This document shows, in pieces, positions 9,732 through 49,911 of a DNA stretch of 64,000 nucleotides. The first letter of the stretch is position 1, and each line of letters opens with the position of its first letter. This DNA is from Anaerolineae bacterium (GTDB taxonomy: Bacteria > Chloroflexota > Anaerolineae > Aggregatilineales > UBA3940), in assembly GCA_016926255.1 (NCBI GenBank), contig JAFGOY010000055.1, positions 1-64,000 of the forward strand, read 5' to 3'. A program made the position numbers and the translations under genes. The notes under the pieces were generated by a model, which was not told the origin of the DNA, did not search any database, and was given only the letters and a program-made list of their open reading frames with translations.

Positions 9732-9784
9732 CTGAAACAAATCATTTATAAGTTCAATGCTTCAGGATTGCATTGCGGATTTGT

Positions 9785-9885
9785 GAGCGCCCCCCTGTCC
9801 TCGCTCCGCTTGGACTTTCCTCCCCCTTGCAAAGGGGAGGAGAAGAACCGGAGGTTCGGGGGAGGGGGTTCTGAGTTCGATTAAC
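9785..9885. repeat. GC-rich dispersed element, copy in export locus
   Basis: Contains CCTCGCTCCGCTTGG, the palindrome CCCCCTTGCAAAGGGG and GGAGGGGGTTCTGAG. The same blocks in the same order occur at 15065-15200 and, less completely, at 35029-35150. It lies between the adaptor gene and the upstream permease gene. No clear flanking direct repeat was found for this copy. Confidence 0.65.
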
Positions 9886-9917
9886 TTACTCAAAATACAC
9901 CCATTAATCCGATCTGG

Positions 9918-12363: not shown

Positions 12364-12449
12364 CTGTTTTATAGTTATGTTCCCTCCCCCTTGAGGGGAG
12401 GGCCGGGGTGAGGGTGAAAACACCCTCCACCTTATCCGGCTGTTTTATA
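12364..12449. repeat. GC-rich element flanked by 10-bp direct repeats
   Basis: CTGTTTTATA occurs at 12364-12373 and 12440-12449, enclosing the C-run/G-run palindrome CCCTCCCCCTTGAGGGGAGG and GGTGAGGGTGAAAAC. The inner part is shared with 13733-13790 and 63052-63120. It lies between the ATPase and permease genes. Confidence 0.6.
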
Positions 12450-15047: not shown

Positions 15048-15217
15048 TTGTGACATCCCGCAGGTTTTGGGTCTGTTTCAGTTCGGTGGGTGAACCCCCA
15101 CCTGACCTCGCTCCGGCCTTCGGTCGATGTCCTCCCCATTGCAAGGGGGAGGAGTCGAACCGGGGGTTCGGCGGAGGGGGTTCCGATAAAACCCACTAAC
15201 TTGTGACATCCCACAGG
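15048..15217. mobile_element. MITE-like GC-rich element with 17-bp flanking direct repeats
   Basis: TTGTGACATCCCGCAGG (15048-15064) and TTGTGACATCCCACAGG (15201-15217) flank a 136-bp insert. The insert has inverted ends (GGTGGG/AACCCCC and GGGGGTT/ACCCAC) and a central palindrome (CCCCATTGCAAGGGGG). The same core is at 35029-35150, flanked by a different direct repeat, and at 9785-9885. This is the pattern of a non-autonomous insertion with target duplication. No transposase is nearby. The remainder of the gap (14946-15302) shows nothing else. Confidence 0.6.
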
Positions 15218-15302
15218 ATTGGCAGTTTTTTTCTGGCCGCCCAGCATGATACACTACAAGCGGAATTGATCAACACACCAATAAGTGAGGGTTCAATACG
15301 CG

Positions 15303-29163: not shown

Positions 29164-29339
29164 TATCCGGCCACAGATGGCGAACATAACCAGAACATCT
29201 GTTCCATTATATCGAATCAATTGAAACAAGTCAAGCCCTGCCCGATTGTCGGGTGCATTTCAAGTTGGTGCGATCTGATTCAAGAACCAGCGCATTGGCC
29301 TGATCTTTCGACAGATCGCTGTTCCGATCCCGTCTCGTA

Positions 29340-29406
29340 GGGGCGGGGCTTGTCCCCGCCCAGGGGTCGACCTGTGGTCGACCAGCGGGCACAGCACGCT
29401 GTGCCC
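29340..29406. repeat. Triple palindrome intergenic repeat
   Basis: Three consecutive dyads: GGGGCGGGGCTTGTCCCCGCC, then two copies of GGTCGACC separated by TGT, then GGGCACAGCACGCTGTGCCC. The last is shared with 9709-9731. It sits just past the stop codon of the transporter gene at 29451; the rest of the gap (28904-29450) has no convincing gene. Confidence 0.6.
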
Positions 29407-29450
29407 GTACTGAGCAAATTCCGCACTGAAGTGAAATACACCCCCGATTG

Positions 29451-31202
29451 TCAGCCCCCGAAGATCGAGAAGTGGATCAGCAGCCACAGCGACCCCACCG
29501 CAACGGTGAGCAGCATGGCGGGGAACCCCACCTTGAGAAACTCCATATAGGTGATCCGGTAGCCCGCCCGCTCCGAGATTCCCGCCGTGACCATATTGGC
29601 CGAGGCACCGATCAGTGAACTGTTGCCGCCCATCGCCGATCCGACCGAGAGGGTATAGAACAGCACCATGCTGTCGGCTCCGGGGATGGTACGTGTCAGG
29701 AATCCGACCACCGGCAGCATCGCCGCCGTGAAGGGGATATTGGCGATCACCCCTGAGAGAATCGCCGCCGACCAGACAAGCACCAGCACCGCCGCCAGCA
29801 AACTGTCACCAACCAGCGTGCCAATCGCACCGGCGACGATACTCAACAGCCCCACTTCTTGAATTGCCCCGACCAGAATGAACAGTGCAATGAAGAACAT
29901 CAGCGTCGTCCAGTCGACAACCTGCATCATCGTCTCGACGTCGGGCGCAACCCACAGCAGCATCAGCACCGCGCCGACAATCGCAATGACTGCCGGGGCC
30001 ATGTGGAACTTCTCGCCGATGACGAAGCCGAAGATCATCAACGCAAACACGATCCCGCCCCTGAGCAGCTTTTTCGGCTCTTTGATCTTCCCCGCCTCGG
30101 CCAATCGTTCGAGCAGCGCCTCGCTTAGCTCGCCCCCGGTCGCCTTTGACCAGCCCTTGCGGTAGCGCAGCACCACGTAGATGATCAGCACGGCCTGGGC
30201 CAGCAGCACGCCGACCGTCAGGTTGGCGAGGAAGTCGTTGAAACCCAGCCCGGCATAGGAGCCGATCAGGATGTTGGTCGGGGTGCCGATCAGCGTGGCG
30301 ATGCCGCCCACGTTCGAGGCCATCACTTCGGGGATGAGGAGCGAGATCGGGTTGACGCCCAGCGCAAGGGATATCTGGATGGTGAGCGGGGTCATCAGGA
30401 GCATCGTGGTGATGTTGTCGAGCAGCGCCGAGGTGACGGCGGTAGTACACATCAGGATGATCACCAGCAGCCACACTTTGCCGCCGGAGAGTCGATACGA
30501 CTGGTAGGTGAGCCACTGGAAAATACCGGTTTCTTCGATGGCGGCGATGACGATCATCATGCCCATGACGAGGAAGATGACTTCAAAGTCGACATACGAC
30601 AGCGCATGTTCGAAATCGAAAATGAACAGGCCGGGGATGAAGCGGCTGAACGCGCCGGTCATCAGGACGACGGCGACACCCAGCAGCGCGGCGAGCGTGT
30701 TGTGCAGCAGTTCGGCAGCGATGAAGACCAGCACGGCGACGAAAACCAGCGTGGCGATCCAGAATGCGATGGTAATGTGGCGCTCCAGGACGATCGTCTC
30801 CACGCGGGCGGTCGCGCCGAGATTCAGGCGGGCCAGATCGGCAGAACCGGCATCCCATTCGAAGGCATCGAAATGGGGGTGCTCGATCTCGACGTGGAGA
30901 GAATAAATCTCCTCGCCGGGAGCAAACTCGATGAAGAACGATCCGTCGTCGCAGTGGGTGGGAACCGTATCGTAGGGTTCTTCACTGCCGTTGATCATGA
31001 CGGAAACTTCGGCATCACAGACTGCCTGATCCTGCGCATCCAGCACCACACCCGTCAGGCTGGCCCCATCGCCCTGGGCACTGACCGGGGCCGGGTCGCC
31101 GAACGAGAGGGCCAGCGCGCCGATCAAACAGATCAGCAGCACCAGCAGCAGGATGATCCGGCGAGTTTTACCCTGGATACGCGGAAAAGGGAGCATTGGC
31201 AT
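29451..31202 (-). CDS. ArsB/NhaD-type ion transporter with extracytoplasmic N-terminal domain
   Basis: About 583 residues. A signal-like first helix (IILLLVLLICLIGALAL) precedes about 100 residues resembling a carboxypeptidase-regulatory/Ig-like beta-sandwich (SLTGVVLDAQDQAVCDAEVSV, two Cys that could pair). Then about 11 membrane helices of the ArsB/NhaD ion-transporter superfamily, related to the P/OCA2 proteins: TSALLDNITTMLLMTPLTI and GGIATLIGTPTNILIGS are diagnostic. The family moves anions such as arsenite or exchanges Na+ and H+; the substrate is unknown. The N-terminal fusion is unusual for the family. It is divergent from the membrane protein at 31455. Confidence 0.83.
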   Translation of the reverse strand: MPMLPFPRIQGKTRRIILLLVLLICLIGALALSFGDPAPVSAQGDGASLTGVVLDAQDQAVCDAEVSVMINGSEEPYDTVPTHCDDGSFFIEFAPGEEIYSLHVEIEHPHFDAFEWDAGSADLARLNLGATARVETIVLERHITIAFWIATLVFVAVLVFIAAELLHNTLAALLGVAVVLMTGAFSRFIPGLFIFDFEHALSYVDFEVIFLVMGMMIVIAAIEETGIFQWLTYQSYRLSGGKVWLLVIILMCTTAVTSALLDNITTMLLMTPLTIQISLALGVNPISLLIPEVMASNVGGIATLIGTPTNILIGSYAGLGFNDFLANLTVGVLLAQAVLIIYVVLRYRKGWSKATGGELSEALLERLAEAGKIKEPKKLLRGGIVFALMIFGFVIGEKFHMAPAVIAIVGAVLMLLWVAPDVETMMQVVDWTTLMFFIALFILVGAIQEVGLLSIVAGAIGTLVGDSLLAAVLVLVWSAAILSGVIANIPFTAAMLPVVGFLTRTIPGADSMVLFYTLSVGSAMGGNSSLIGASANMVTAGISERAGYRITYMEFLKVGFPAMLLTVAVGSLWLLIHFSIFGG

Positions 31203-35012: not shown

Positions 35013-35166
35013 TCAACGCAAGAGATGTTTTTCAGATTTGGCGACAAAACCCCCTCTTGACCTTGCTTCGCTCTTTCAAGGGGGAGGTGCCGCAGGCGGA
35101 GGGGGTTCCAGGCTCGAATAAAACATCTGTCCGCAAGATTGAAGTACACCTCAACGCAAGAGATGT
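35013..35166. mobile_element. MITE-like GC-rich element with perfect 16-bp flanking direct repeats
   Basis: TCAACGCAAGAGATGT is present at 35013-35028 and 35151-35166. Between them are 122 bases with blocks shared with 15065-15200 and 9785-9885: CTTGACCTTGCTTCGCTC, CAAGGGGGAGG, GGCGGAGGGGGTTCC and AATAAAAC. The flanking repeat differs from the one at 15048, as expected for target duplication. It splits the murF-mraY operon without disrupting either gene. Confidence 0.65.
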
Positions 35167-49619: not shown

Positions 49620-49890
49620 TTTTGGCCCTCACCCTGAATCCGTCTCCCTCAGGGCGAGGGACTTTAATCTGCTTATTCTCCCTTCTCCATGAGGGAGGAG
49701 GGCCGGGGATGCGGGCTTCCGACGTCTGCTTCATACCAGACACGCTCAACGGAGTTCATAACATCACTCCAGGTTCTGTTGACATTTAGGATTGGTTTGA
49801 TTACCAAAACCCTCTCCGCCCGAACCCCAGGTTCGACTTCTTCCTCTTGCAAGGGGGAGGTCAGGTGGGGGGTCACCTGCTGAACTGAAA
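49620..49890. repeat. Cluster of GC-rich intergenic elements
   Basis: Three blocks with alternating C-runs and G-runs: around 49625-49665 (CCCTCAGGGCGAGGG), 49680-49735 (TCCATGAGGGAGGAGGGCC) and 49808-49885 (CTTCCTCTTGCAAGGGGGAGG next to GGTTCG). The last is an inverted copy of the core in 9785-9885. The gap 49579-50030 has no gene. Confidence 0.55.
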
Positions 49891-49911
49891 CACACCCCCT
49901 CTCCGAAACGC

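Follow-up and report, generated by a model that had tools for sequence, protein, structure and literature searches.

ISKra4 is a known family of transposons related to plant Mutator. As described in PMC3942029, elements of this family and of its relatives carry inverted repeats of 18–39 bp and are flanked by target duplications of 8 or 9 bp, and the ISLre2 and TnGBS elements, as well as several elements of the ISKra4 group, are inserted upstream of sigma-A promoters at a constant distance from them. This distance is 13–17 bp for several ISKra4-group members, whose group is the only one within p-MULT 4 with reported promoter targeting (PMC3942029), while ISLre2 and TnGBS (p-MULT 3) insert in a defined orientation about 16 bp upstream of such promoters. 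A -1 two-frame arrangement is reported in the same paper for the ISMich2 group.

We compared with these systems a set of short, GC-rich elements found in a 64,000-nucleotide stretch of DNA from an Anaerolineae bacterium (hereafter the window). A sequence-only reading of the window had described some of them as MITE-like, inserted with target duplication, and had drawn attention to flanking repeats of 16–17 bp as unusually long duplications. With a probability of roughly 0.9, we consider these elements to be MITEs, i.e. non-autonomous derivatives of an insertion sequence of the ISKra4 family (prokaryotic Mutator-like group p-MULT 4), presumably mobilized in trans, which duplicate 9 bp of the target and insert upstream of promoters. 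They resemble ISKra4 (PMC3942029) in the length of their inverted repeats and duplications, and in that the transposase of their autonomous relatives matches the ISKra4 model NF033572. Unlike ISKra4 insertion sequences, the copies in the window are only 129–193 bp long and lack a transposase gene, which together with their 23-bp termini qualifies them as MITEs, and no such gene is found in the rest of their own genome either. The MITE family itself is new, of a kind already known. In the literature searched, which took in only a minority of the subscription journals, we found no description of ISKra4-derived MITEs.

Alignment of copies from the whole genome, as proposed in the earlier reading, yielded about 24 related cores and a shared 23-bp terminal inverted repeat, GGGTSTGTTTCARKTYRGTGGGT (wider consensus GGGTGYRTTTCA); the left end GGGTCTGTTTCAGTTCGGTGGGT and the right end read inward, GGGTGTGTTTCAAGTTAGTGGGT, represent one and the same repeat. 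At up to three mismatches GGGTSTGTTTCARKTYRGTGGGT matches 13 times in the window's genome, and the reversed control does not match at all. The sequence blocks said to be shared by several elements are real (GGMGGGGGTTCY has three occurrences in the window, against an expectation of 0.00). The boundaries given earlier, 15065–15200 and 35029–35150, are a few bases off; the alignment of full-length copies places the outer termini beyond them (Table 1). Two copies had been overlooked, one at 29251–29443, which differs in its interior and has an exact 9-bp duplication, and one near 49808–49897. The copy suggested at 9785–9885 can be recognized by its right end, ACTTACTCAAAATACACCC, which ends at 9902, but its left end is degenerate and is not accompanied by a clear duplication. 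Copy 1 has an RNA folding z-score of -4.0, and copy 2 has a Mur ligase gene on one side and a gene for a glycosyltransferase-4 (MraY-like) on the other. As had been noted, none of the copies in the window carries a transposase. Searches of the window against Rfam families found none, and the element was not found by DNA similarity in 60 relatives.

Table 1. Copies of the element in the window, with their termini, target duplications and neighboring promoter-like sequences (TIR, terminal inverted repeat).
Feature	Position	Strand	Remarks
MITE copy 1, 144 bp	15069..15212	+	termini aligned with genome-wide copies
Copy 1, left TIR GGGTCTGTTTCAGTTCGGTGGGT	15069-15091	+	
Copy 1, right TIR, degenerate	15190-15212	+	
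Copy 1, palindromic core CCTCCCC..GGGGGAGG	about 15131-15152	+	
Copy 1, left 9-bp target duplication GCAGGTTTT	15060..15068		6/9 match to the right one
Copy 1, right 9-bp target duplication ACAGGATTG	15213..15221		
TTGTGACATCCC, outside the left duplication of copy 1	15048..15059	+	identical to the final 12 bp at the right end (15201-15212)
Extended -10-like box TACACT, preceded by TGA	15250..15255	+	37 bp from copy 1 junction; weak -35
MITE copy 2, 129 bp	35023..35151	+	left TIR AGATGTTTTTCAGATTTGG; right TIR (reverse complement) AGGTGTACTTCAATCTTGCGG
Copy 2, left 9-bp target duplication CAACGCAAG	35014..35022		exact
Copy 2, right 9-bp target duplication CAACGCAAG	35152..35160		exact
MITE copy 3, 193 bp	29251..29443	-	different interior; termini GGGTGCATTTCAAGTTGGTGCG / GGGTGTATTTCACTTCAGTGCG
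Copy 3, target duplication CCGATTGTC	29242..29250		exact, 9 bp
Copy 3, target duplication CCGATTGTC	29444..29452		exact, 9 bp
Predicted promoter TTGACT-17-TATAAT	29206..29234	-	16 bp between copy 3 junction and -35 box
MITE copy 4	49808..49897	-	one well-preserved terminus, GGGTGTGTTTCAGTTCAGCAGGT (49875-49897); decay at the other end
Promoter-like TTGACA-17-TATTAT near copy 4	starts 49912		14 bp from junction; read from sequence
MITE copy 5	9766..9902	+	core and right end retained; degenerate left end; target duplication not clear

The duplications have a constant length of 9 bp and a different sequence at each site, as expected for MITEs, which supports insertion with target duplication. They are exact for copies 2 and 3 in the window and for three copies elsewhere in the genome (C55:140140, C50:146189 and C74:67740), the last of which is core-less and only about 48 bp long; at C19:85955 the match is 8/9. 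Many core copies in the window's genome (L007, L009, L010, L012-L015, L017-L022 and L025) have no recognizable termini; they may be MITEs in decay, or else a repeat unit of their own. These core-only copies (window's genome, G000) display palindromic cores CTCCCCCTTGCAAGGGGGAG bounded by GAACCCC/GGGGTTC. The segment at 12364–12449, reported earlier as a related element with a 10-bp pair (12364/12440), contains a CCCTCCCCC..GGGTGAGGG palindrome; we dropped it from the family, as the pair is at the noise level (other loci reach 8–11 by chance) and the segment shows no two matching termini flanked by a duplication.

The long flanking repeats that had attracted attention do exist: the 17-bp repeat with one mismatch (15048–15064/15201–15217) and the exact 16-bp repeat (35013–35028/35151–35166) have direct-repeat scores of 14 and 16, compared to 6–10 typically obtained for the highest-scoring direct repeats at most of the other core copies. 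Nonetheless, they are 9-bp duplications lengthened by bases that are equal to the element's own ends, and do not represent a new mode of insertion. The 16-bp repeat consists of T, CAACGCAAG and AGATGT, i.e. one base that matches the right end of the element and six that match its left end, placed around the 9-bp duplication; the AGATGT that follows the right duplication (35161–35166) is identical to the first 6 bp of copy 2. The 17-bp repeat is composed of TTGTGACATCCC, corresponding to the terminal 12 bp of the right end, and the beginning of the imperfect duplication GCAGGTTTT/ACAGGATTG.

To analyze the target preference we pooled 44 insertions validated by their duplications and scored their flanks with a simple count of matches to the -35/-10 consensus, a score of at least 9 being regarded as strong. 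In 24 of the 44 cases (0.4 expected) the junction lay 15–17 bp from the -35 box of a strong sigma-70-type promoter, and the mean best score at this distance was 8.36, compared to 5.63 (sd 0.17) in shuffled flanks; at other offsets the scores were at the background level. By inspection, the CAAGTT end faces the promoter in most copies. The fixed distance applies to the pooled elements; copies 1 and 2 in the window, taken individually, exhibit only a weak promoter match downstream, roughly at the right place. The position 15–17 bp from the -35 box corresponds to the specificity published for ISKra4, ISLre2 and TnGBS (PMC3942029).

The search for a transposase gene whose element has matching ends, also suggested in the earlier reading, led to the ISKra4 family, in relatives and not in the window's own genome. 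Two related genomes (G052 and G059) contain complete insertion sequences of 1.39–1.40 kb; their termini are GGGTGCATTTCA, and their 9-bp duplications are exact (GCAAAATTC, TCGAGAAAG and AGGGTTGAG). In G027, from the same order, two copies with the family termini extend across contig ends and are flanked by duplications TATTCCTAG and ATTCGGCAA; their transposase matches NF033572 with an e-value of 2.8e-45 (1.3e-10 for the N-terminal part), the pieces being fragments of a split gene that fall below NCBI's cut-off for full-length proteins. In G002, a member of the window's own family, transposase fragments adjoin the termini GGGTGCATTTCAACTTTGTGGGT/GGGTGCATTTCAATTTCGTGGGT, and the same right end also bounds a transposase-less element with a GC-rich interior. 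The termini are thus common to autonomous ISKra4-encoding elements in relatives, including G002. No ISKra4 transposase was detected in the window's genome, a draft of 82 contigs and 96% completeness in which loss of the gene is indistinguishable from its non-assembly.

In the full ISKra4-type elements (L178, L179, L188, L189 and L197, as well as L159/L160 in G027) the transposase is encoded in two overlapping frames, the second in +1 relative to the first, and the split falls on a conserved T4-5/C5 run, TTTTTCCCCC. A layout with two overlapping frames was given for the ISMich2 group in PMC3942029; here it is found together with promoter targeting.

At the level of the class, the terminus GGGTGYRTTTCANNTT was found, strongly enriched, in 147 of 396 genomes, with up to 81 matches per genome and about 0–1 per genome for the controls, whereas the interiors vary between genomes. 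Among the fetched sites the duplication length peaks sharply at 9 bp, and at 8 bp in one genome (G500), in agreement with the direct repeats of 8 or 9 bp of the ISKra4 family. The sites from G500 (L294-L313 and L334-L353) have the same termini, and their duplications are mostly of 8 bp rather than 9. The left end and the core of the element were not found in the named genome collection, from which the records of the window's own genome are perhaps absent.

If the direct repeats of 16–17 bp, or the 22-bp repeat at one site in another genome (L129), were taken at face value, they would indicate a truly long or variable duplication, made either by a small element not yet described or by an ISKra4 machinery that cuts the ends imprecisely. 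In favor of this, direct repeats extend by at least 3 bp into an element end on 7 of 48 element sides (about 0.75 expected), and the bases that copies 1 and 2 have in common with the flank differ from the consensus of the termini. We regard it as improbable, since most copies have duplications of exactly 9 (or 8) bp next to conserved full termini, and since only a junction set at the 9-bp duplication yields a promoter spacing in line with the other family members: L129 and copy 3 then both give 16. Early cases suggested that terminal bases which deviate are always copied from the opposite flank, but in the larger set only 4 of 7 matched it. It is conceivable, although doubtful, that a real step of this transposition lies behind the excess of extensions (15048, 12 bp; 35013, 7 bp; L129, 13 bp; C50 and C74, 4–6 bp). 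Such a step could be the choice of end-like targets, the persistence of end-spacer-end circle junctions or tandem remnants, or the conversion of an end from the flank. The extensions are longest in copy 1 and in L129, where the 13 bp correspond to 9 + 4 bp. The flank of L129 is similar to the terminus and partly coincides with the -35 box, and hence target resemblance may be a part of the answer; remnants of tandems or circle junctions may be an alternative source. We know of no description of any such step for Mutator-like elements.

Two other classes of mobile elements were also considered. The short, GC-rich palindromic interiors, the intergenic location and the multiple copies are reminiscent of REP/REPIN sequences, which would be moved by a RAYT (Y1) transposase and whose flanking repeats would be incidental; the roughly 24 palindromic cores, many of them without recognizable inverted-repeat ends, could be viewed in this light. 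However, inverted-repeat termini with exact 9-bp duplications do not suit REP elements, and the proposed RAYT search revealed no Y1_Tnp domain (PF01797) in the window's genome, while five control genomes were positive, so that this explanation appears very unlikely. Still less credible is a derivation from the IS256 family, which is also Mutator-like and has duplications of the same class, 8–9 bp (PMC3942029): no Transposase_mut domain (PF00872) is found in the window's genome, the autonomous elements with matching ends encode ISKra4-type transposases, and IS256 lacks the promoter targeting (PMC3942029) exhibited by the present elements. ISLre2 and TnGBS do share the oriented insertion upstream of promoters, but the transposase from the relatives matches their model NF033529 far more weakly than that of ISKra4 (3.2e-14 vs 2.8e-45).

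Under the preferred reading of the elements as ISKra4-derived MITEs, a transposase of the ISKra4 type acting in trans would bind the termini of about 23 bp, and the element would move, probably via a circular form as published for relatives. It would be inserted by a 9-bp staggered cut near a housekeeping promoter, 15–17 bp upstream of its -35 box, usually with the CAAGTT end towards the promoter, and the GC-rich palindromic interior, different between copies, would be the cargo. The action in trans would have taken place in this lineage, and the transposase gene would presumably have been lost from the genome analyzed here. The lack of a transposase in the own genome, the scores of the G027 transposase pieces below NCBI's cut-off, the many core-only copies, the weak promoters of copies 1 and 2 and the 6/9 match of the copy 1 duplication count against this explanation.

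An apparently new kind of insertion is thereby replaced by a known one, and the elements turn out to be placed immediately upstream of promoters, where they can matter. Since the termini are abundant throughout the class, they amount to an extensive natural collection of small elements, each dropped a set distance upstream of a promoter. This collection can be used to study how Mutator-like transposases target promoters and how such targeting affects the regulation of genes in these bacteria.
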